Below, piece after piece: positions 1 to 17,259 of a stretch of DNA of 32,885 nucleotides. Where the stretch lies: assembly GCA_030827315.1 (NCBI GenBank), contig JAURER010000029.1:1-32885 (forward strand), written 5' to 3'. The DNA comes from Gemmatimonadota bacterium (GTDB taxonomy: Bacteria; Gemmatimonadota; Gemmatimonadetes; Longimicrobiales; Gaopeijiaceae). Position numbers and translations under genes: made by a program. Positions within the stretch are counted from its first letter, which is position 1, and each line of letters begins with the position of its first letter. The notes below the pieces were generated by a model. The model did no database searches. It had not been told where the DNA came from and saw only the letters and a list, made by a program, of their open reading frames with translations.

Positions 1-3000
1 CGAGGAGACCGGGCGACGGTACGCGGCGGGCTCCCACCGGTTCGGGCTCCACCGCCGGCGGCCGCGTCTGCGTCGGGCGCCCGCGCACGGCCGCATCGAT
101 GCGGTGCTCGGGCACCTCAGCGACCGGTGCAGCCTCCGCATCGCCGGTGGACGCGAAATGACGGCGGAAGAACAGCTCGAAGTCGTCGACCAGCGAGTAC
201 ATCACCGGCACGAGGATCAGCGTGAGGAAGGTGGCGAACAGAATCCCCGCGATGATGGCGACGGCCATGGGGCCCCACCACGCCGCCTGCTGACCACCCC
301 AGTACAGCTCCGGGTCCAGCGCTCCGAAGAGGCCGAAGAAGTCGAAATTGAGCCCGATCGCGAGCGGAACCATGCCCAGGGCCGTGGTCAGCGCCGTCAG
401 CACCACGGGACGAAATCTCGTCCTGCCCCCCTGCACCAGCGCCTCGCGCCGGTTCAGGGCGTCGCGGTCGCGGAGCACGTCGATGTAGTCGATCAGGATG
501 ATCGCGTTGTTCACCACGATGCCGGCCAGCGAGATGATGCCGACACCCGTGTTGATGATCCCGAACGGCATGCGGAACACGACGAGCCCGATCAGAACCC
601 CCATGGTCGACATAATCACCGACGTGAGGATGATCACCGGCTTGATCACCGAGTTGAACTGACTGATGAGAATGAAGCCGATGAGCAGCAGCGCCGTCAG
701 GAAGGCACCGCCGAGGAAGGCCGAAGCCTCGGCCTGCTCCTGCGACTGCCCCGTGTACCGCATGGTGTAGCCCGGCGGCAGCGCCCCCTGGAAGTCCTCG
801 AGCGTCGACTGCACTTCCGCGAGCACGGCGTTGTTCGCGTACCCCGCCGCCGCGTCAGCGCTGATGGTTGCCATGCGGGACTGATCCTTGCGACGGATCG
901 CGCCCGCGCCCTCCTCGACCGACCACGTCGCCACCGACACCAGCGGGACCTGGACTCCACCTTCGGCCATGACCGTCAACTCGCGCAGGCCCTCGAGCTC
1001 GTCCCGGTACCGCTCCGACAGGCGCACCACGATGTCGTACTCGTCGTTGCCGGTGCGGTACTTCGCCGCCTCCACCCCGTTGATCGCACTGCGGATGGCG
1101 CCGCCGACCTTCGAGGTATTGAGGTCGTAGAGCGCGGCCTTCTCGCGATCGACGACGACGGAGAGCTCGGGACGAGCGACGTCCAGATCGCTCTCGAGCC
1201 CGACCAGCTTCCGGAACACGGGGGCGTTCTCGAGGATGTCGATCAGGTCGTCCGACAGCGCCTGAAGCTGCGCCGGATCGTCACCGACGATCTCGATGCT
1301 TACCGGCGACCCCTGCGGCGGTCCCTCGGACACCTTGTCGACGACCACCGTGGCCCCTGCGATGTCCGAACCGATGGTGTTCTGCATCTCGGCCAGCGTC
1401 GCGAAGGCGTCCCGGTCCCTGTTCTGGAACTCGACCAGCGAGACCGAGATCCGTCCCGATTCAGGACCGCTCGAACCTCCGCCACCCATCGGGTTGCCCC
1501 CGCCACCGGCAGAGCCGGTGGTGGCGACCGTCGACTTCCAGTCGGACCGCCCCCCGATGGATTGGAGCTCCTCTTCGATGCGCTGCACCACCTCGTCGGT
1601 CACGTCCGCGCGAGTGCCCACCGGCGTTTCCACGTCGATCAGCAGCTGGCCCGGCGGCATGTTCTCGGGGAAGTACTCGACGCCCACGCCGAACCGTCCG
1701 AAGAGGAGCCCGGCGAAGACGAAAATGGCGAGGGTACCGGAGATGACCCGTGCGCGGTGATCGAGCGACCACCGAAGCTTCTTCTCGTAGTCGTCGATGA
1801 CCGCGGGGAGCAGGCGATCCTGGAAGGTCCTGGCCACCGCGTCGAGCACCCTCCGGTACAGAGCCCAGAGCAGGACCGCGGTCGCGACGAGCATGCCGGC
1901 CGTGAGCGGATTCGCACGCGCGATCAGCAGGAGCACGAGGCCCGTGCCGCCGACGAGGGTCCACCGCGCCGCCGGCCGGAGCGGCGTGGTGGGCGTGCCG
2001 TCGAGAGTCATGTACATCGAGCACAGCACCGGCACGATCACCAGCGCCACGAACAGCGAGCTCGAGAGCGTGATGATGAGCGTCCTGGGCATGTATCCCA
2101 TGAACTCGCCGACCTCACCGGGCCAGAAGAGCAGCGGCGCGAAGGCCGCGAGCGTGGTCGCCGTCGCGGCGATGATCGGGAGCGCCACCTCGCCCGTCGC
2201 TTTCCGGGCCGCGGTGACGCGGTCGAAGCCTTCCTCGAGAAAGCGGTACGCGTTCTCCACCACCACGATCGCGTTGTCGACGAGCATGCCGAGCGCGAGG
2301 ATCAGGCTGAAGAGCACGATCATGTTCATCGAGATGCCCAGGGCCTTGAGCACGATGAACGAGAGGAACATCGAGGACGGGATCGAGACCGCGACGAAGA
2401 GCGAGGTCCGAAGCCCCAGAAAGAACAGCAGGACGCCGACGATGAGGATGAGCCCGCTGATGATGTTGTTCTCGAGGCTCGACACCATGTCTTCGATGTC
2501 CGCCGACGAATCCGAAGTGATCACGACGTCGGTCGTCGGTGGAAAGAGCGCCCGCATCGACTCGATCTCCGCGCGTACCGCCTCGGCGGTCTCGATGATG
2601 TTCTCGCCGGAGCGCTTCACCACGTCGAGCGTGACGACCGCACGCCCGTCCATTCGCGCGAACGTCGCACGCTCGGCGAAGCCGAAGTCGACCGAGGCGA
2701 TGTCGCGCACGTAAACCGGGCGACCATTCTCGATGGTGATGACGAGATCTTCGATCATCGCCGGATCTTCGAACTCGCCATCCACGCGCACGAGGTACTT
2801 CGTGTCACCCACGTCGATCGATCCGCCCGGGATGTTCACGTTCTCGCTGCGGATCGCGTCCACGACGTCCTGGAGCGTGAGGCCGTAGTAGTTCATGCTC
2901 GAGAGGTCGACCTCGACCTTGATCTCGCGCTCGAGACCGCCGCGCACGTCGGCCCTCAGGACCGCCGGGATCGTCTCGATGCGATCCTGGAGCTCCTCGG

Positions 3001-3538
3001 CGATCTCCTTCAGCCGCACGAGACCATAATCGGCCGAAAGGTTGACCTGCATGATCGGCACTTCGGAGAAGTTGAACTCGATGATGCTCGGCTCCTGCGC
3101 GTCCTCGGGGAGGTCCACCTTTGCCAGGTCGACCTTCTCACGGACCTTCTGCAGCGCCTGATCCAGGTCCACGGAGGCGTCGAACTCCGCCGTGATGCTC
3201 GAGTACCCTTCGATGGAGGTCGATGTGAGCTCCTTGATGTCGCTGATGGTGGAGAGGTCCTCCTCGAGCACCCGCGTCACCTGGCTCTCGACGTCACCCG
3301 GTGAAACGCCCGGATAGATCGTGTTGATCACGAGGATCGGGATCGCGAGTTCGGGGAACGACTCCTTCGGTGTCGCCCGGTATGCAAGCGAGCCCATCAG
3401 CGCGATGATGAGCAGCAGCACCAGGACCGAGGTCCGCTGCGAGATCGCCAGACTCGTGAGCCCGAACTCCCGGAACGAATGGAGTCCGTCGCGGTCGGCG
3501 CCCCCGGCGCCGTTTCCCGTCGGTGTGTCCGAAGTCAT
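1..3538 (-). CDS. RND-family efflux pump permease (AcrB-like), C-terminus cut by window edge
   Basis: Inner-membrane proton-driven exporter that would work with the adaptor and TolC-like channel encoded just upstream. The reading frame opens at an ATG at 3538 and has no stop down to base 1, so about 1179 codons are present and the protein end is missing. The N-terminus has a first membrane segment (SVLVLLLIIALMG), then the porter-domain start with YPGVSP and ES. TM4 carries GMLVDNAIVVVEN with Asp421 and Asn422; AcrB has two Asp at this place. TM10 carries LAGIVVNNAIILIDYI, so the AcrB Lys940 position is Asn. The last membrane helix ends in FLTLILVPVMYSLVDD, after which a proline- and arginine-rich cytoplasmic tail of over 60 residues runs off the edge, longer than usual for the family. 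An AAGGGG ribosome site lies 5 bases before the ATG, and the adaptor stop is 8 bases upstream. The family is secure; the substrate cannot be told from sequence. Confidence 0.95.
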   Translation of the reverse strand, partial: MTSDTPTGNGAGGADRDGLHSFREFGLTSLAISQRTSVLVLLLIIALMGSLAYRATPKESFPELAIPILVINTIYPGVSPGDVESQVTRVLEEDLSTISDIKELTSTSIEGYSSITAEFDASVDLDQALQKVREKVDLAKVDLPEDAQEPSIIEFNFSEVPIMQVNLSADYGLVRLKEIAEELQDRIETIPAVLRADVRGGLEREIKVEVDLSSMNYYGLTLQDVVDAIRSENVNIPGGSIDVGDTKYLVRVDGEFEDPAMIEDLVITIENGRPVYVRDIASVDFGFAERATFARMDGRAVVTLDVVKRSGENIIETAEAVRAEIESMRALFPPTTDVVITSDSSADIEDMVSSLENNIISGLILIVGVLLFFLGLRTSLFVAVSIPSSMFLSFIVLKALGISMNMIVLFSLILALGMLVDNAIVVVENAYRFLEEGFDRVTAARKATGEVALPIIAATATTLAAFAPLLFWPGEVGEFMGYMPRTLIITLSSSLFVALVIVPVLCSMYMTLDGTPTTPLRPAARWTLVGGTGLVLLLIARANPLTAGMLVATAVLLWALYRRVLDAVARTFQDRLLPAVIDDYEKKLRWSLDHRARVISGTLAIFVFAGLLFGRFGVGVEYFPENMPPGQLLIDVETPVGTRADVTDEVVQRIEEELQSIGGRSDWKSTVATTGSAGGGGNPMGGGGSSGPESGRISVSLVEFQNRDRDAFATLAEMQNTIGSDIAGATVVVDKVSEGPPQGSPVSIEIVGDDPAQLQALSDDLIDILENAPVFRKLVGLESDLDVARPELSVVVDREKAALYDLNTSKVGGAIRSAINGVEAAKYRTGNDEYDIVVRLSERYRDELEGLRELTVMAEGGVQVPLVSVATWSVEEGAGAIRRKDQSRMATISADAAAGYANNAVLAEVQSTLEDFQGALPPGYTMRYTGQSQEQAEASAFLGGAFLTALLLIGFILISQFNSVIKPVIILTSVIMSTMGVLIGLVVFRMPFGIINTGVGIISLAGIVVNNAIILIDYIDVLRDRDALNRREALVQGGRTRFRPVVLTALTTALGMVPLAIGLNFDFFGLFGALDPELYWGGQQAAWWGPMAVAIIAGILFATFLTLILVPVMYSLVDDFELFFRRHFASTGDAEAAPVAEVPEHRIDAAVRGRPTQTRPPAVEPEPVGARRVPSPGLL

Positions 3539-3546
3539 GTTGCCCC

Positions 3547-4701
3547 TTACCGATCCACGACGTTGACGCGATCGCCGTCGGCGACCGACTTCTGTCCAAC
3601 GATCACGAGCCGTTCACCGGACTCGACGCCCGATTCGACGACCACCAGGTTGCGCCGCGCCGGCCCGAGCACGACCTCACGCACCTCGGCGACCTCGTTT
3701 CCGTCGCGCTCGGCCACCACGAAGACGACGTAGCCGCCTTCGACCCGGATGAGCGCGTCCTGCGGCACCACGATCGCCTCCTCCATGAGCCGCCGGGCGA
3801 GCGACACGTTTGCGACCATCTGAGGCTTGATCGCCCCATCGCGATTCGAGACCTCGGCCTCGATCCCGAACGTGCGGTTCTGCGCATCGACGGTGGAGCT
3901 CACGTACCGGATCCTCGCCGCGTACGTCGCCCCGCCGAGCGCCTCGAAGACCATCTCGACAGTGGCACCCACCGCGACGTCCGCTGCGTAACGCTCCGGA
4001 ACGCCCGCGACCACCTTCACGGGGTCCAGCTGCACGATCCGGCCAATCGTCTTGCCGGGTCCGACCATGGTCCCGACGTCCACATGGCGCTCGTCCAGGA
4101 CACCCCCGAAAGGCGCTCGGACCACCGTGCGGTCCAGTCGCTCCACCAGGACCGCGAGCGCGGCGGCGGACTGCTCGGCGGCGAACCTGGCCTCCAGGTA
4201 CGCGATTTCGGAGCCGACGCCCTCGTCCTCGAAGAGCCGGCGGCGTCGATCCCACGTCTGGGAAGCGAGGTCGGCCGCGGCCCGCGCCTGAGCGACCTGA
4301 GCCGTCAGGACCGCGTCGTCGATCTTGGCGATCCGGTCCCCGGGCGCGACACGATCGCCGCGGTCACGGAAGATCTCCGTGATCTGTCCGCTCTCCTCGG
4401 CCTCGATCATGACGTCTCGGTTCGCCATGGCGACGGCCGTGAGACGGATCTCCTCGACGAACCGCTCCCTGGTGATCGGAGCCACCTGCACATTGATGAC
4501 GCGAACGAACCGATCGCTCGCCTCCGCGTCCTCCGTACCGTCCGCCTGGGCGGACCCGCACGCGGCGAGGACGACCAGCGCCCCCGACGCGAACCATCTC
4601 CTGTATCGGGCCATCTTCGTTCGCTCGAATCTCTCGGTATGCATGATCTGGGTCCCCACGCCGCACGTTCCCCGCCCGTGCCCCCGCTCGTCGATCGTCA
4701 T
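3547..4701 (-). CDS. RND efflux periplasmic adaptor (HlyD/AcrA family), lipoprotein
   Basis: Membrane-fusion protein that bridges the pump (3538) to the outer-membrane channel. It reads as a classic adaptor: a lipoyl-like half (MIEAEESGQITEIF), an alpha-helical hairpin rich in Ala/Arg/Glu, the second lipoyl half (VVRAPFGGVLDERHVDVG), a beta-barrel domain (VVAGVPERYAADVAVG) and a membrane-proximal domain with VVPQDALI. A lipobox LAAC follows a hydrophobic stretch, so the mature protein should be lipid-anchored. The start is uncertain. The ATG at 4701 has a GAGGTGA ribosome site 8 bases upstream that also contains the stop of the tolC-like gene. This leaves about 29 residues before the signal peptide. 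ATG 4614, which gives MARYRRWF followed directly by the hydrophobic core, is the alternative and makes a more usual lipoprotein signal. Confidence 0.93.
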   Translation of the reverse strand: MTIDERGHGRGTCGVGTQIMHTERFERTKMARYRRWFASGALVVLAACGSAQADGTEDAEASDRFVRVINVQVAPITRERFVEEIRLTAVAMANRDVMIEAEESGQITEIFRDRGDRVAPGDRIAKIDDAVLTAQVAQARAAADLASQTWDRRRRLFEDEGVGSEIAYLEARFAAEQSAAALAVLVERLDRTVVRAPFGGVLDERHVDVGTMVGPGKTIGRIVQLDPVKVVAGVPERYAADVAVGATVEMVFEALGGATYAARIRYVSSTVDAQNRTFGIEAEVSNRDGAIKPQMVANVSLARRLMEEAIVVPQDALIRVEGGYVVFVVAERDGNEVAEVREVVLGPARRNLVVVESGVESGERLVIVGQKSVADGDRVNVVDR

Positions 4702-4709
4702 CGGTGTAC

Positions 4710-6200
4710 TCACCTCGCGTCCACGTCGATGACGGGCACCTGTCCCGTCGCCTCGTCGAACTGAGCGCGGGCTACGAGGTAGTCGTAGACCGCCTGGGCG
4801 TAATTGAACTCGCTTTGGCGAAGCGCCACCTCAGCGTCGGTCAGCTCCAGCTGACTCCCGATCCCCTCCCCGTACTGCGCGCTCGCGATCTCGAAGCCTC
4901 GCTGAGCCTGCCGGACCGCGAGCCTCTGGCCGCTTGCCCGGAGGTAGGCCTCTTCCACCGCTTCCATGATCGTCCGGACCTGACTCTGCGCCGCCTGAAC
5001 AGCCTGCTCGGAGTTGGCCCGGGCCTCGCGCAGGGCCGCACGCTTCTGATCGACCCGCGCGACGCGGCCGAGGCCCTGGAAGATCGGGAGCGACACGCGG
5101 AGCCCGAAGAACTTCGAATCGGCGCGCTGCCCCGAACCGGAGGCGAAGAAGCTCGGCGCCCCGTTGTTCTGCGCGCTCACGACGTAGTTCCCGAAGAGGG
5201 TGATCTCCGGCAGGTACGCGGCCTGTTCCGCACGCATCTCGGTACGCCGCAGCTCCTCAGTCAGATCGAGCTGACGGAGGTCCGACCGCTGCGTCAGCGC
5301 GACGGACAGACCCTCCTCCAGCGCCGCCTGGACCTCGTCGAGTCCGCCGATCGTGGCCCCGTTGAACGTCAGGACCTCCAGATTGTCGGGAGAGTTGGCC
5401 GAGACGTCGTCGAGGTCCATCTCCGCCAGCGAACCCCGCACCTCCAACGTTTCGTGGTCGGCGACATTCACCAGGATGGCCAGCTGTCGTCTGGCCTGGA
5501 GCACAGCGTTGCGGGCCCTCCGGAGATTCGGCTCGAGATTCGCCAGCTCGACCTCGAGCCGGAGCACGTCGTAGTCGTCCGAGAGGCCGGCGCGGTTGAG
5601 CGCGCGGGTCTCGTCCAGCGACTGGCGGACGCGCCGGACGGAGTTCTCCGTGAGCCGGGCCTGTTCCTGAGCGAGAAGCAGCTGGTAGTAACCCGAGCGC
5701 ACCCGGGTCACGATGCTCTGCTCCCGCCCCCGGACGGCCTCGCCCTGGAGGGTCTCGAAGCGCTGCGCCGCGCCGAGCGCCACGATGACGCCGGGCCGGA
5801 AGAGCGGCTGCTCCAGGGAGAGCGTGGAGTTCCAGACGTTGTCGGCGCCGAACTTGACGCCGATGTAGTCGTCCGGTCCGGCCGTCGGGTCGAAGATCAC
5901 GGCCGGGAGGAAGTTCACCGCCGCGGCAATATTCCTCTGGTACGACGCATTCAGGTCTACCGACGGCATCACCTGACTCCAGGCCTCGGAGACCTGCTCC
6001 TGCGCGGTCACGTACGCCTCCCGGGCCGCGATGAGCTCACGGTTCGAATCGAGCGCGAGGCGCACCAGCTCCACGAGCCCTTCCCGGCTCGAGTCCTGCG
6101 CTTGGGTGGGCACGGGCGCACCTGTCAGCACCGAAACGACGGCGAGCAGGATCAGTGTTCTCTTCATCGTCCACATTCTGCGGTTCTCGTTGACGGTCAT
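4710..6200 (-). CDS. TolC-family outer membrane efflux channel
   Basis: Outer-membrane factor of the tripartite efflux system. The 496-residue chain has a signal peptide (MKRTLILLAVVSVLTGAP, ending near AQAQ-type TQAQ), then two related halves rich in long Ala/Gln/Glu/Arg helices with the usual features of OEP repeats: EAWSQVMPSVDLNASY in the first half, and EAYLRASGQRLAVRQAQRGF and YGEGIGSQLELTDAEVAL in the second. The ATG at 6200 has an AAGGGG ribosome site 7 bases upstream and overlaps the TetR stop by 4 bases (ATGA), so translation is likely coupled. Eleven residues precede the signal core if 6200 is used; ATG 6167 is the alternative start. The TGA stop at 4710 is followed directly by the adaptor gene. 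Length and domain order fit the family. Confidence 0.95.
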   Translation of the reverse strand: MTVNENRRMWTMKRTLILLAVVSVLTGAPVPTQAQDSSREGLVELVRLALDSNRELIAAREAYVTAQEQVSEAWSQVMPSVDLNASYQRNIAAAVNFLPAVIFDPTAGPDDYIGVKFGADNVWNSTLSLEQPLFRPGVIVALGAAQRFETLQGEAVRGREQSIVTRVRSGYYQLLLAQEQARLTENSVRRVRQSLDETRALNRAGLSDDYDVLRLEVELANLEPNLRRARNAVLQARRQLAILVNVADHETLEVRGSLAEMDLDDVSANSPDNLEVLTFNGATIGGLDEVQAALEEGLSVALTQRSDLRQLDLTEELRRTEMRAEQAAYLPEITLFGNYVVSAQNNGAPSFFASGSGQRADSKFFGLRVSLPIFQGLGRVARVDQKRAALREARANSEQAVQAAQSQVRTIMEAVEEAYLRASGQRLAVRQAQRGFEIASAQYGEGIGSQLELTDAEVALRQSEFNYAQAVYDYLVARAQFDEATGQVPVIDVDAR

Positions 6201-6829
6201 CCACTCACCCCTTCTTCCTGAGCCAGATGCTCCAGCTCCGCGCCGAACTCCGGCGTCGCCACGCCCGCCATGAGGCGCCTGCCCGAGGCCTTGAAGAGCA
6301 TGCGGAATTCATCCTCGGACGCGTGCAGGCACCCTTGGTGGTAGAGGTGCACCATGCCATGCGCGTGCGCCCACATCGTGACCGCCGTCTCCTCGGGGTC
6401 CCCGTGCCGGAGAATCCCGGCCTGCATGCACTCCCGGACGCGATCGTTCCAGAACTGACTGATCGCGGCCTGCATCGCGGCGATGTCGCCCGGCAGCGCG
6501 TCCATGCCGAGATGCTCCGGCGCGGTGTGCATGATCGCATACCACCGCGGGTGATCGATCACGAAGCTCAGATACCCCTCGCCGGCACCGATGAAGCGCT
6601 CCAGGGGCGTCGGCGCACCCAGCGCGCCGTAGAGATATCGCGAGAAGAGCCGGTGCGCCTCGCGCAGCACCTCGGCGATGAGTTCTTCTCGACCGTCGTA
6701 ATGACGGTAGAGCGCCGGCGCGGTGACACCGACCTCGCGGGCCAGCTTGCGCATTGAAAAGCCTTCGATCCCGTGCTTCAGGTACAGGTCGCAGGCGCAG
6801 CCCAGGATGTGTTCGCGCTGATCTGACAT
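6197..6829 (-). CDS. TetR/AcrR-family repressor of the efflux operon
   Basis: DNA-binding repressor expected to control its own operon and the pump genes downstream. Residues 1-50 form the TetR helix-turn-helix: REHILGCACDLYLKHGIEGF, then MRKLAREVGVTAPALYRHY, which is the highly conserved recognition helix. The remaining 160 residues are the alpha-helical ligand and dimerization domain (about 210 aa in total, normal length). ATG 6829 is chosen because homologous proteins begin just before this helix. The frame stays open to 6901, but the extra residues look like non-coding translation, and the promoter lies inside that stretch. There is no ribosome site before 6829; the promoter position suggests a leaderless message. 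The gene end overlaps the tolC-like start by 4 bases. Confidence 0.92.
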   Translation of the reverse strand: MSDQREHILGCACDLYLKHGIEGFSMRKLAREVGVTAPALYRHYDGREELIAEVLREAHRLFSRYLYGALGAPTPLERFIGAGEGYLSFVIDHPRWYAIMHTAPEHLGMDALPGDIAAMQAAISQFWNDRVRECMQAGILRHGDPEETAVTMWAHAHGMVHLYHQGCLHASEDEFRMLFKASGRRLMAGVATPEFGAELEHLAQEEGVSG

Positions 6830-6845
6830 GTGAACACTGTACACA
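6829..6845. promoter_or_regulatory. Palindromic putative TetR operator
   Basis: The 17 bases read TGTGAACACTGTACACA on the plus strand. Fourteen of the 16 non-central positions are symmetric about the middle base. The site covers the -10 box and reaches the first base of the repressor's ATG, exactly where a self-repressing TetR protein would block transcription. That the TetR product binds here is inference from position and symmetry. Confidence 0.7.
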
Positions 6846-6864
6846 ATGAGGCCTTTTGGGTCAA
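6836..6864 (-). promoter_or_regulatory. Sigma70-type promoter of the tetR-tolC-adaptor-pump operon
   Basis: On the minus strand there is a -35 box TTGACC (6859-6864), a 17-base spacer, and a -10 box TACAGT (6836-6841). Only six bases separate the -10 box from the ATG at 6829, so the start of transcription should fall on or next to the start codon (leaderless mRNA). The -10 box sits within the palindrome at 6829-6845. Confidence 0.65.
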
Positions 6865-6897
6865 CGCAACCCAGCGCCCACACGATAACGCTGTTTA

Positions 6898-6911
6898 GCA
6901 CCTTTTGGTGC
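6898..6911 (-). terminator. Small hairpin downstream of the envelope cluster
   Basis: GCACC and GGTGC pair around a four-base loop. The hairpin lies between the last envelope gene (stop at 6964) and the tetR promoter, on a stretch of about 130 bases with no gene. The stem is only 5 bp and there is no U tract, so it is a weak candidate for the end of the upstream transcript. Confidence 0.25.
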
Positions 6912-6963: not shown

Positions 6964-7542
6964 TCAGCGTTCTCCCGGAAGCCCGAGGTTGACCCAGCCC
7001 CGGCCCGGCCGCCGCCCCCGGTAAATCCCCCCGGCGACCGCCCCCATCACGATGCCGATCCACGCTCCGCGGATGCCGGCGGTGACGATCTGCCCCGGAG
7101 GCCGCGCGGGGTCGTGCGTGACACCGGACGCATTGAGCGCCACTCCGACGGCCGCACCCAGGAAGAGGCCTGTGGCCCCGCCCAGCACCAGACCGTGTCG
7201 CAAGCCCTCGCGGTTCGTGCGCCTCGTGAGGACCTGGAGCTTGTGCATCTGGAAGACGGAGACCGACCACGGGTCATCGAGGCCATGGACGTCCAGCAGC
7301 ATGGTCTCTCCACTCCACCCGAGGAACGACGCCGTGACCGGGAGCGCCGACGGGGTGACCATGACCCGGACGGTGTCCCCCTTCTCCACCCGGTTCGTGT
7401 CGGCCTCCTGTGCCGCTGCACCCCGGAAGGGGCCCCCGGCCGCCAGGACCAGGACGCTCGCGACCGCACGCCCACGAAGCCGTGAGCGGACGCCACGCGG
7501 TGCCACCGCGTGCCGTCTCGCCGGAGGTGCGTCGCGATCCAC
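6964..7542 (-). CDS. Exported small protein with LSM/SH3-like strand region and glycine-rich membrane-like tail, function unknown
   Basis: Not a family I can name. The N-terminus has an arginine-rich stretch then a hydrophobic core (VASVLVLAAGG) ending in GAAAQ, a good signal peptidase I site. Next comes a short beta-type region, GDTVRVMV...ASFLGWSGETMLLDV...VFQMHKLQVL, with the look of the small barrel domains that often start with a KGDTVRV phrase. Then two glycine/alanine-rich hydrophobic segments follow (HGLVLGGATGLFLGAAVGVAL and GAWIGIVMGAVAGGIYRG), resembling glycine-zipper membrane stretches. The start is uncertain: GTG 7542 (GAGGG 11 bases upstream) or GTG 7506, which leaves a compact 27-residue signal. 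The gene begins 14 bases after the Omp85-like gene and is the last of three co-directional envelope genes. No cysteine lipobox was seen. The function is open. Confidence 0.75.
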   Translation of the reverse strand: MDRDAPPARRHAVAPRGVRSRLRGRAVASVLVLAAGGPFRGAAAQEADTNRVEKGDTVRVMVTPSALPVTASFLGWSGETMLLDVHGLDDPWSVSVFQMHKLQVLTRRTNREGLRHGLVLGGATGLFLGAAVGVALNASGVTHDPARPPGQIVTAGIRGAWIGIVMGAVAGGIYRGRRPGRGWVNLGLPGER

Positions 7543-7556
7543 GTGCCGGGGGGCCC

Positions 7557-9794
7557 TCAGAGAGCTGCGTCGAGGTACAGGTCGAGGCGGAAGCCCCGGG
7601 GCGTGGTGAACCCGTACCCGGCGTCCAGCCGAAGGAGCCCGTCCACGAGCGACGCCCCTGCCCCGCCGGCGAAGAAACCGTTCTCGAGGTCGAACGCGTT
7701 TCTGTCCCCGGCCCACCCCCAGTCGCCGAACAGGAGCAGCGCCCCGAAGTCGAACGAACGCGCCACCTCCGCCCGCCCGCGGGCGAATGCCGTACCCGCC
7801 GCGAGGCGCGGTGCGTACCCGCGGAGGGTCCGCGGACCACCCACGTACCAGCGCCTCTGGACGGTGGGGTCGCCCCATGACGTCCCCGCCCCCGCCTCGA
7901 GCAGCACCCGCAGTCGCCCCGGAAACGGAATGACGGACCGACCAACCAGCGACGCACGCACGTAGTCGTCGATGCCGGTCGCTCCGAGGACGTGCAGATC
8001 GAATCCTCCCTGGGCCATCCGTGGGTCCGTCCCCCACCAGGGGCTGACGTCCACCGCGCCTCCGTACTCCCACCCCTCTTCGGCCACGATGTTGGTCCGG
8101 TACGCCCAGTCGTCGTGCCAGAACTGGAACAGGGCGAAGCTCGTGTTGACGTTCGCCGCCTGGTGGTATTCCGCGAAGCCCCGCACCCGGTACGACCGTC
8201 GGGCCGCGCCGGGCGGCTGGACTGTCAGCGATGCGCCCGACCGGTACCAGTAGTCCCCGTCGTCACGTCCAAAGAGCAGGGCGAGCAGGGAGTTCCCCGG
8301 GCCGAGGTGGCGCGCGCCTTCGTCGATCGGCACCAGATCGCGGTAGCCCGACACCGCGACCCGGCGTCTCAGCGTCTCCTGCGCCACGTCCACCCCGACA
8401 TTGGGCCACAGGTCGCCGAAACCGACGCGGCCCGTGAGCGACAGGGTCAGGGGACCGGCCGGACTCCCGGGCCGGGCCTGCCAGCGCCCACCGAGCGACA
8501 GCGCCTCAACCCGGTTGAAGCGGACGAGGTCGGGGCGCTGCAGCCCCCACCGGAATGTCGTGGGCATCTGCGGAAGCGAAGCCAGCGGCAGGTCGGCGAG
8601 CCGTGAGAACCTCTCCTCGAGCTCGGCCTCGGACGAGAAGCCCGCGGCATCGTCCCAGACGGGCGGAGGCAGCTCCGGGCTGGTTCCAAGGAAGGCCCGG
8701 TCCGTCGGCACCAGGTAGCTCGCCGCCCGGCGGTCCCGCGCTCGATCGTTCCAGCCGCTGTGCGACACCTCGAACGGGACCTCCTCGCCGAACGCCAGCT
8801 GGTTGAGGTACGCCATGGCCTCGCTGCGCTTGCGGAAGTTCGCCTCGGGCAGCGCCGGCACGCCGCGGGCGCGACCCGCCTCTGTGATCACCGCTTCGAT
8901 CTCGTAGGCGTAGTCCAGCGATATCGGTGCCTGGAGCACGCCCGCGGCCACGACGCCCTCCACCCTCATGCTGCGCGGGAGCCAGACCTCGAAGTCCCAG
9001 AGCGAGTAGTCGACCGAAATCATGGAAACTTCTGCCGTCCACGGCTTGAGCAGACCGGGGACCGAGCGCAGATCCGGATCGTCCTCCTCGAGGTCCGGGA
9101 CGTCGCGGAAGGCGTCGAAGGTGTCCGACAGTCGGTACACGGCGCGCACGAGGGCCCCGGACTCCGGTTCGATCCAGAGCGCCCCGGTCATGCGGTGGAC
9201 ATCCGCGACGCGCGGGACGACCTGGAGCTCCACAGCCACGATCCGCCGTCCGTCGGGCAAAGCCAGGACGAGGGAGTCCGCGGAGCTGAACCAGTAGCGG
9301 TCGACGTACTCCGGGTAGAGCGGGTGCTCGAACCGGAAGCCGTCTCCCTGAGCATCGCCCGCGTCTTCGCCGTCGCCCCCCAGCCCGAAGAAGAGGCGAT
9401 CGTTCATGGGATCGAACGCGGCATCGAACCGGCCGAGGTCGACGTTTTCGCGGTCGACGCCCGCGGGCGTCTGCTCCCGGTACGCGAGCAGCTGCACGAG
9501 GTTCTCGCCGTCGCGATCCCACCAGAGCCGGTGAGCCGACTCCGAGCGGTAGAGCGTCCGGTCCTTGAGCGGCATGCGGAGCGCCGCGGCGATCCGCTGG
9601 CGAACGACGGCCGTGTAGCGCAGTACGTCGTCGTCGATCCGTGCCCGCGCGTCCATGGCGGCGAGGTGCAGTCGGCGGGCGAGGGGGTCCCGGTAGCTGT
9701 CGGCCCGGGCGCCGACCGGCTCCTGCCCGCCCAGCGCGGACGCCGCGAACGATGAAGCGGCGAGCACTGCGGCCATGCGGGCACCAAGCTTCAT
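7557..9794 (-). CDS. Omp85/BamA-superfamily-like outer membrane protein with unfamiliar N-terminal domain
   Basis: A 745-residue exported protein. A signal peptide (MKLGARMAAVLAASSFAASA, then LGGQ) is followed by about 320 residues that do not look like standard POTRA repeats. This part includes TGALWIEPESGALVRAVYRL, reminiscent of the LolA-like fold seen in lipoprotein-handling proteins; that resemblance is weak and is inference. The last ~370 residues alternate aromatic and small residues as in a beta-barrel and contain GGPRTLRGY near residue 652. This matches the conserved RGY/F motif of Omp85 loop 6, and is followed by typical final strands. The last residue is Leu rather than the usual Phe. 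It could be a surface-antigen type barrel, a translocation or assembly factor, or a porin-like protein. The ATG overlaps the upstream gene's stop (ATGA), with GGAGA 7 bases upstream. Confidence 0.8.
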   Translation of the reverse strand: MKLGARMAAVLAASSFAASALGGQEPVGARADSYRDPLARRLHLAAMDARARIDDDVLRYTAVVRQRIAAALRMPLKDRTLYRSESAHRLWWDRDGENLVQLLAYREQTPAGVDRENVDLGRFDAAFDPMNDRLFFGLGGDGEDAGDAQGDGFRFEHPLYPEYVDRYWFSSADSLVLALPDGRRIVAVELQVVPRVADVHRMTGALWIEPESGALVRAVYRLSDTFDAFRDVPDLEEDDPDLRSVPGLLKPWTAEVSMISVDYSLWDFEVWLPRSMRVEGVVAAGVLQAPISLDYAYEIEAVITEAGRARGVPALPEANFRKRSEAMAYLNQLAFGEEVPFEVSHSGWNDRARDRRAASYLVPTDRAFLGTSPELPPPVWDDAAGFSSEAELEERFSRLADLPLASLPQMPTTFRWGLQRPDLVRFNRVEALSLGGRWQARPGSPAGPLTLSLTGRVGFGDLWPNVGVDVAQETLRRRVAVSGYRDLVPIDEGARHLGPGNSLLALLFGRDDGDYWYRSGASLTVQPPGAARRSYRVRGFAEYHQAANVNTSFALFQFWHDDWAYRTNIVAEEGWEYGGAVDVSPWWGTDPRMAQGGFDLHVLGATGIDDYVRASLVGRSVIPFPGRLRVLLEAGAGTSWGDPTVQRRWYVGGPRTLRGYAPRLAAGTAFARGRAEVARSFDFGALLLFGDWGWAGDRNAFDLENGFFAGGAGASLVDGLLRLDAGYGFTTPRGFRLDLYLDAAL

Positions 9795-11041
9795 CGGGAG
9801 ATCTCCAGGCGCTCGAAGTCCTGCCAGCGGACCAGCCTCGTCGGTCGGCCTTCCGGTGTCACGAAGATCCCGTCATGGAGCCTCCCGGCGTCGTGCAGAT
9901 CCTCGAGGACGATCTCGCGCCCGTCACGCAGCATGACCGCGACGCGCTCCTCGTCGAATCTGCGGATCGACGCGATCCGTCCGAACTCCACGCTCAGTTG
10001 CGTGTCACCGTGCCAGCCGTCCAGCGACTCCCAGAGCTGCTCTTCGTCGACGCCCCAGCGAACGGCACCCTCCAGCACGCGGCCGTCGCGGGCACGGACG
10101 GTTCCCCGAATCGGCGCGCCCGGTGAGAACTCGTCGCGCGGCCCCGCCGCCGGCGCCGGGTGCAGGCGCAGCGCGCGGAAGTCCACCCACCGTACCACGG
10201 CCTTCCCGAGCGCCGGGTCCGACACTTCGATGCCGCGGTTGCCCCGGTTCACCTCGTTCGAGCCTCGAAGCGTCCGCTCCTCTCCGCTGACGAGCACGAC
10301 GCGCACGCGACGCGGCCCATCCTGTTCGATCGATGCGATCTCTCTGAACGGAATCTCGACCGCTCCGCCGCCGTCCCGCCCTTCGAGCACGTCGCCGGTG
10401 AGGACGTCGTCGACGTCCCACGCGATGTCCCCCGTGAGCTCGAGGTCTCCCCACGTCACCACCGTGCCGTGAAGACGACGGCTCTCCGGACGGCGCAGCG
10501 AGTCGGGCGGCGAGAGGAAGTCCACGCGCTGGAGCTCACGCCAGCGGAAGGCGCGGTCGGGCAGACCGGATCGCTCCACCACCACCTCGCGCAGTCCGGT
10601 TCCGAGGTCCGTGGACGAGCTCTCCAGGATCAGCTCCTCCCCCGACCGCAGGGTGACCCGGGCGGTGCGCCCATCGACGACGCTCAGCGTCGCGACGTGC
10701 GCGAGGCGCATAGAGACCCGGGACGAAGGGGGATCGGCCAGGTCGTCCTCGTCCCATGTGATCCGCATGCCGAAGGCGACGAGGCTGCGCGCCTCGCGCT
10801 GGACCCGCGCGAAGTCGGGATCGAGGCGCTCGGCCTCCCGGATCCGGTCGGGCGAGATCTGCCGGCGTCCGTCGAGGAAGTCATTCGGCCCCGCTTCGTT
10901 GCGATCCCATCGGAGGAATCCCTCGACCACGTCGCCCTCGGCCGTGTGCACGCGTCCGTAGAGCCGGTCACCGTCGGGCTCCTGCGCGGGGTGAAGGAAG
11001 AGCGCGAGCGCGAACAACGCGCGGATCCACGTCAGCTCCAT
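9791..11041 (-). CDS. Exported protein with three tandem ~110-residue repeats, function unknown
   Basis: 416 residues. A hydrophobic N-terminus (ALFALALFLHPAQ) suggests export, although only one Arg precedes the core. The rest is three diverged copies of one unit, at about residues 27-176 (with an insertion), 189-295 and 310-415. Each copy begins with a G-x-V phrase (LYGRV, LHGTV, IRGTV), continues with an EG-x-(L/V)RW-type strand (GFLRWDRNE, GDIAWDVDD, GAVRWGVDE), has an I-x-SI turn (IASIEQ, IASIRR), a VxVxLxSGEE/RDGRE strand (VTLRSGEEL, VVLVSGEER, VMLRDGREI), and ends in a VRW-x-DF-like block (FRWRELQRVDF, VRWVDFRAL, VRWQDFERL). These look like small beta-barrel modules. No catalytic motif is seen. 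The first gene of the three-gene envelope cluster; ATG 11041 has GAGG 6 bases upstream. Confidence 0.78.
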   Translation of the reverse strand: MELTWIRALFALALFLHPAQEPDGDRLYGRVHTAEGDVVEGFLRWDRNEAGPNDFLDGRRQISPDRIREAERLDPDFARVQREARSLVAFGMRITWDEDDLADPPSSRVSMRLAHVATLSVVDGRTARVTLRSGEELILESSSTDLGTGLREVVVERSGLPDRAFRWRELQRVDFLSPPDSLRRPESRRLHGTVVTWGDLELTGDIAWDVDDVLTGDVLEGRDGGGAVEIPFREIASIEQDGPRRVRVVLVSGEERTLRGSNEVNRGNRGIEVSDPALGKAVVRWVDFRALRLHPAPAAGPRDEFSPGAPIRGTVRARDGRVLEGAVRWGVDEEQLWESLDGWHGDTQLSVEFGRIASIRRFDEERVAVMLRDGREIVLEDLHDAGRLHDGIFVTPEGRPTRLVRWQDFERLEISR

Positions 11042-14455: not shown

Positions 14456-15801
14456 ATGAGAGTCGTCGTGGTTGGCGCCGGCGAGGTGGGCTTCCACCTG
14501 GCCCAGCGCCTGTCGGAAGAAGCCCAGGACGTGATCGTGGTCGAGTCCGACCCCGACCGCGCCGAATTCGCCGCCCAGCAGCTCGACGTGCAGACCATCG
14601 TCGGAAACGGCGCGTCGCTCTCCGTGCTTCGGCAGGCCCAGGTGGAACAAGCCAGCATGCTGCTCGCGGTAACGAGTCGCGACGAGGTCAATCTCGTGGC
14701 CTGTCTCGCCGCGAAACGCCTGGGCGTGGGATACACCGTTGCACGCATCTCGAGCCCGGACTACTACGAAGCGAACTCCGTGCTTTCTCGTGAGCAGATG
14801 GGCATCGACCTCATGGTGAACCCCGAGCGCGAGTGCGCGCAGGAATCGTTCCTGATCCTTCAGAACGCCGCCTTCACGCAGGTGGTCGAATTCGCCGACG
14901 GGAAGGTCCGTCTCGTCGGACTCAAGGTCCGCGAGGGCGCGCCGGTGGCCGGGAGCACCATCCGGGACCTCAGGGAGCGTTTCAAGCAGGGCTACCACTA
15001 CGTCACCGCCGCCATCGTGCGCGACGGCACGACCCGAATCCCGAAACCGGACTCCACCATCGAGGCCGGCGATCTCGTCTATCTGATCTCGCCGTCCGAG
15101 GAGCTTGACGAGGTACCGCCGCTCGCCGGCTACGACCGCTTCGAGCTGCGCCGTGTGATGATCGCGGGGGGCAGCCCCGAAGGTCAGTACATTGCGGAAC
15201 TCCTCGAGGCGCATGGAGTGCAGTGCACCCTGCTCGACCGCGACCGGCGTCGCTGCGTCGAGCTGGCCGAGGCCCTGCCCCGCTCGCTCGTGCTGCACGG
15301 CGACGCGACCGACCTCGAACTCCTGGAGATGGAGGGCGTGAGCGGTGTCGACGGGTTCGTGGCTGCGACCGGCAACGACGAGACGAATCTCCTCTCCAGC
15401 CTTCTGGCGAAGAAGGCCGGCGCTCGGAAGGTCCTGAGCCTGGTCCACAAGTTCGAGTACATGCAGCTCGGCCCCACGGTCGGAGTCGACGCCAGCGTGT
15501 CGCCCCGCATCTCCGCGGTCAACGCGATCCTGCGCCGGATCCGGAGAGGCCAGGTCATGACGGTGGCCTCACTGTCGGAGATCGAGGCCGAAGCCATTGA
15601 GTTCGTGGTGCGGCCCCACTCCCGGATCGCGGGCAAGGCGCTTCGTGACGTGGCCTTCCCCAAGGAAGGCGTGGTCGGCACCATCCTCCGCGGCGACGAG
15701 ATCATCATCCCGCGAGGCACGGACGTGCTGCAGCCCGGAGACGACGTGATCGTCTTCGCCATGCCCGAGGCGATCCCCGAAGTCGAAGCGCTTTTCGACT
15801 G

Positions 15802-15802
<1 letters not shown>
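14456..15802 (+). CDS. trkA: Trk potassium uptake regulator TrkA (NAD-binding peripheral protein)
   Basis: Cytoplasmic ring-forming protein that gates the TrkH channel. It is 448 aa with the standard duplicated layout: RCK-N 1 (VVVGAGEVGFHLAQRLSEE, with the acidic VVESD strand end), RCK-C 1 near residues 140-220 (VGLKVREGAPVAGSTIRDL), RCK-N 2 (IAGGSPEGQYIAELLEAHG), and RCK-C 2 at the end (HSRIAGKALRDVAFP). In the second nucleotide-binding turn, GGSPEG replaces the more usual glycine-rich triplet, so that site may bind its ligand differently. The stop overlaps the trkH ATG by one base, so the two are made together. No good ribosome site before the ATG: the nearest GGAG is 12 bases away, within a small stem. 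Confidence 0.96.

Positions 15803-17259
<1,457 letters not shown>

Follow-up and report, generated by a model that had tools for sequence, protein, structure and literature searches.

Do three neighbouring genes of a Gemmatimonadota bacterium, all read in the same direction, form a single envelope system and, if only some of them belong together, what might those do? The genes, termed A, B and C here, lie in a window of 32,885 nucleotides (the whole stretch of DNA that was analysed), which is contig C91 of a draft genome (3.07 Mb). None of the three exceeds the cut-off of any Pfam or NCBIfam family. The named relatives used for comparison are uncultured Gemmatimonadota, several of them labelled Longimicrobiales. 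The features on which the analysis turns are as follows.

11041-9791, minus strand: gene A, an ORF of 416 aa with a Sec-type signal peptide and three homologous beta modules
Residues about 26-178, 187-296 and 309-416 of A: the three modules, mutually homologous (AlphaFold pLDDT 89.4)
10154..10483, minus strand: module 2 of A, residues 187-296, whose suggested fold recalls the ImpE domain of HsiE1/TagJ
9791..9794, minus strand: ATGA overlap of the A stop and the B start (translational coupling)
9794-7557, minus strand: gene B, 745 aa, with a signal peptide, a DUF5686-like periplasmic domain (residues about 36-306) and an Omp85-type barrel (residues about 411-745)
7815..7826, minus strand: LRGY loop-6 motif of B, residues 657-660 (converted to DNA positions from the B start at 9794)
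7506-6964, minus strand: gene C, 180 aa from the GTG at 7506, with a small beta region and two Gly-rich hydrophobic stretches
2..6901, minus strand: efflux operon neighbouring A, B and C, with TetR (6901-6197), TolC (6200-4710), MFP (4713-3547) and an RND pump (3538-2)

A preliminary description of this DNA had the three genes co-directional and overlapping or at most 14 bases apart. The minus-strand reading frames bear this out, the 14-base gap between B and C requiring that C start at an alternative GTG at 7542; from the GTG at 7506 the gap is 50 bases. The two glycine-rich membrane-like stretches described for C were also found, along with a hydrophobic start. In the neighbouring operon, TetR, TolC and MFP were identified by Pfam and NCBIfam and the RND pump by gene order and size, with matching genes in relatives. 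A promoter-like site, resting on weak consensus evidence, occurs at 6864-6836 of the window, just upstream of the likely ATG of TetR, and would separate TetR transcription from C. Elsewhere in the window, at 14456-17259, genes for TrkA and TrkH potassium uptake apparently form an operon, the TrkH start being next to the TrkA stop.

The barrel protein B

The outer membranes of bacteria and organelles are built by Omp85 proteins, in most cases by way of POTRA domains. B belongs to the Omp85 superfamily of barrels and carries the RGY motif, as had been proposed from the sequence. In its AlphaFold model (pLDDT 77.2), residues 411-745 match Sam50, TamA and BamA with Z of 20-21 over about 280-290 residues, and DSSP assigns 15-16 barrel strands. 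A search of the PDB with the B profile returns TamA at E 0.0011. The TLRGY motif is retained among 19 relatives, L657 and R658 being invariant and G659 near-invariant. Pfam searches with these relatives, at E up to 1, match Omp85 (PF01103) in 13 of the 19, with a best value of 3.9e-5, and DUF5686 in six; B itself matches neither family.

The periplasmic domain of B resembles DUF5686, at a level below the family cut-off, and takes the place of recognisable POTRAs, no POTRA family being present among the Pfam matches of the 19 relatives. The curated cut-off for DUF5686 (PF18939) is 39.2 bits, and the match of B in a genome scan (G029) reaches 21.3 bits. The domain is predicted to consist mostly of long strands, and a LolA-like fold was considered from this secondary-structure pattern; a profile search against the PDB gave no significant solved relative of the domain, and a fold search with the whole of B returned barrels. 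The likeness to DUF5686 consists of weak profile matches in relatives of B and in a remote paralog in the same genome, an Omp85/DUF5686-like protein on contig C36 (G000; L142:1402-3348) which has a weak DUF5686 match of its own. The plasmids searched for B contained no match.

B shares with TamA (which works with TamB), BamA and Sam50 the barrel fold (Z about 21), the loop-6 RGY motif and a periplasmic N-terminal domain, but differs from them in lacking a recognised POTRA, in the DUF5686-like character of that domain and in having a partner, A, which has no match to TamB. POTRA domains are usual in the Omp85 superfamily, yet optional in the scheme of PMC4104836. An Omp85 barrel joined to an unusual N-terminal domain also recalls PlpD and other non-standard subfamilies (PMC4104836, PMC11116518); B differs in that its non-standard part comprises a domain of DUF5686 type and a partner encoded by a gene of its own. 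The genome that carries B holds a separate BamA candidate and TamA/TamB candidates. Two strong Omp85 proteins are encoded elsewhere in it, one of them on contig C42 near the sole TamB match of the genome, so that B is not paired with TamB and would be an addition to BAM and TAM.

The repeat protein A

The three module copies attributed to A are true repeats. Profile-profile comparison with hhalign relates them at E values of 6.6e-23, 1.1e-20 and 1.1e-33, with 28-31% identity, and the AlphaFold model, built with 19 aligned relatives, has a mean pLDDT of 89.4. In a fold search, module 2 of the model resembles the C-terminal domain of HsiE1/TagJ (4uqy_A) with a VIA-align Z of 8.2 and an rmsd of 2.2 over 93 residues, a likeness bordering on common arrangements; the best unrelated entry scored Z 4.4. 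Matches to LytTR-like folds and to the haemolysin beta-prism were weak (Z at most 4.4) and were set aside.

This suggests that the modules resemble the ImpE domain of TagJ/HsiE1 in fold. Profile-profile comparison of the modules with ImpE proteins of related genomes gave probabilities of 0.2-3.8%, with only a short match around an IPF motif, and the genome that carries A has no match to PF07024 (ImpE). Since the sequence comparison is not significant, the suggested likeness is one of fold and does not extend to common descent. A further differs from the ImpE proteins in having three tandem copies and no TPR domain, and in being exported, whereas TagJ is a cytoplasmic T6SS accessory. In HsiE1, the ImpE fold and two preceding helices make up a groove which holds an extended TssB peptide (PMC4239648); the two pre-barrel helices are absent from modules 2 and 3 of A. 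No relatives of A were detected in the PDB at the sequence level.

Joint inheritance and loss

The partnership of A and B is well supported genetically. Among 20 loci selected for A, 18 have B after it; in the other two, A is interrupted by a stop (L032) or is a stand-alone paralog (L040). In a second collection of 56 orthologous loci, chosen for B and sharing some genomes with the first, the gene immediately upstream of B is A in 51. The exact 4-bp overlap recurs in 36 of 47 measured pairs, in a scan which took the start nearest the A stop and was hence biased to small distances, although not to 4 bp specifically. Trees of A and B drawn from 45 pairs have 24 of 33 well-supported splits in common and four conflicting pairs of splits; the distance correlation between the two proteins is 0.83, part of which reflects shared ancestry. 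Tandem A-B-A-B-B arrays in two loci (L088:440-10624 and L091:528-10359) represent a duplicated pair with an extra B, and their copies pair in the trees as A1-B1 and A2-B2. Outside the Gemmatimonadota, the locus appears in these data only on four contigs labelled Gammaproteobacteria (L072, L074, L075, L093), which are probably mislabelled or contaminated MAGs.

A and B have also been lost together. Six relatives have neither gene intact: the loss is clean in L125, L126 and L130, and remnants persist in L127, L129 and L167. The order in L126 is adenine glycosylase, C, TetR, TolC, MFP, RND, with neither A nor B, and the left side is the same in L125 and L130. In L127 (7451-9247) a deletion or a misassembly has fused the N-terminal part of A in frame with the C-terminal part of B. 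A C-terminal piece of B is the sole remnant in L129, and L167, from another genus, has pieces of both genes beside TolC-MFP-RND. Loss therefore strikes both genes, with the reservation that single cases could be assembly errors because these are draft genomes.

Part of this co-inheritance could be simple linkage. That linkage and translational coupling account for all of it, A and B serving separate processes, is an improbable reading. It draws on the persistence of B without A in five loci and on the existence of A without an adjacent B; it is opposed by several apparently separate losses which remove or damage both genes, by duplication of the pair as a unit and by retention of the overlap in most pairs measured. 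The near-constant joint inheritance and loss of A and B point to a two-part envelope machine.

The same deletions separate C from the pair. C is retained in L125-L127, L129 and L130, beside TetR-RND where the contig shows those genes. It is found in its own genus and a few relatives, and matches to it occur at only five of the 56 A-B loci, in one case at a distance of 2.7 kb. The preliminary description had seen in the beta region of C a likeness to the repeats of A; hhalign profiles give this a probability of 0.2-1.3% and show no homology. The proximity and common direction of the three genes, and the position of C after B in the nearest relatives, would suit a three-part system, but C is kept in genomes from which A and B have been deleted, most A-B loci lack it and it shows no homology to the A modules, so that such a system is very improbable. 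C as a third member was accordingly rejected, and the gene is more properly treated as a neighbour of the A-B unit. Of the single undescribed envelope cluster proposed earlier, the pairing of an Omp85-type barrel with a repeat protein therefore stands, and its gene order extends well beyond this strain; the membership of C does not.

An accessory role for A and B in the neighbouring TetR-TolC-MFP-RND efflux operon is equally improbable. In many relatives the pair runs in the same direction as the operon and either adjoins it or precedes it by a few genes; however, the operon persists without A and B in L126, other genera have the pair beside FtsX/MacB transporters or an amino-acid permease, and no RND genes were found next to the pair in L031, L036 and L039. 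Another neighbour, located in some relatives downstream of B and of an M1 peptidase gene, encodes a cyclophilin-type prolyl isomerase with fused HEAT repeats (L026:11588-13666).

A possible assembly or export module

The A-B pair is real and apparently undescribed. The reading tentatively favoured here, with confidence just short of even, is that A and B form a two-gene accessory module for outer-membrane assembly or export in which A is the dedicated periplasmic partner of B. The Omp85-type barrel of B would lie in the outer membrane, with its DUF5686-like beta domain on the periplasmic side. A, an exported periplasmic protein with no anchor, would dock on that domain as a dedicated subunit, and its three ImpE-like modules may hold an extended segment of a client, or deliver it to the barrel, for insertion into the outer membrane or passage across it. 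The module would be accessory and client-specific, working alongside BAM and TAM, and dispensable in that it can be lost. Physical contact between A and B, the handling of a client or cargo and the direction of transport are steps which we infer. Counted in favour of the module are the barrel match with its RGY motif, the coupling of the genes, their co-inheritance and joint decay, the presence of separate BamA-like and TamA/TamB-like genes, the contrast between the mostly plain signal peptide of A proteins paired with B and the membrane segment or lipobox-like site of most stand-alone A paralogs, and the part taken by the ImpE-fold domain of HsiE1 in binding an extended peptide (PMC4239648).

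If this reading is correct, the one-to-one association of an Omp85 barrel with an unrelated modular partner would represent another way of feeding or controlling such a barrel. Such a pair would, in addition, offer a first way into the function of the DUF5686-like Omp85 group, on which a search for DUF5686 found no paper in the literature searched. A bolder version, in which A and B are a new assembly or export machine, an Omp85 barrel with a DUF5686-like domain and an ImpE-fold partner replacing POTRA and TamB, and in which the partner fold has been reused as a membrane-anchored periplasmic protein, is rather doubtful.

Counted against the assembly/export module are occurrences of either gene without the other, together with the missing groove helices in modules 2 and 3. 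Five orthologous loci (L050, L085, L087, L092 and L094) have B but not A, the place of A being taken at L085 by a cytochrome P460-like gene; in some lineages, then, B can act alone or is on its way to loss. B-like proteins occur in 175 of 200 genomes of the phylum, throughout it and without A; A occurs in 34 of the 200, all of them from its own family except for a few that belong to a sister family. Two of these sister-family genomes (L113 and L164) have an A of the signal-peptide type without a neighbouring B. A paired with B mostly bears a plain signal peptide. Stand-alone A paralogs, found in other neighbourhoods, mostly have an N-terminal membrane segment and in a few cases a lipobox-like site.

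A full-length, colinear homolog of A with all three modules is carried by the Rufibacter tibetensis plasmid NZ_CP012644.1 (27% identity and E 2e-41 in pairwise comparison). Directly downstream of it come genes for a histidine kinase (PF06580) and for a response regulator of the LytTR type (L157:7983-11082), with polysaccharide lyase and TonB receptor genes nearby; a viral collection searched with this homolog gave no match. The placing of this homolog beside the kinase and LytTR genes, which also counts against the assembly/export module, leaves room for a sensing role of A. The main rival to that module, unlikely as it appears, is accordingly that A is a periplasmic protein for ligand binding or sensing and B mainly its outer-membrane anchor or gated channel, neither assembling nor translocating proteins. 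This would agree with the membrane anchors carried by A homologs that lack B, with the kinase, regulator and TonB receptor beside the Rufibacter homolog and with the case of PlpD, an Omp85 family member which PMC11116518 describes separately from those that serve assembly and translocation. Set against it, apart from the efflux-operon TetR no conserved regulator is linked to A and B in the Gemmatimonadota, and the barrel of B has kept the Omp85 loop-6 motif.
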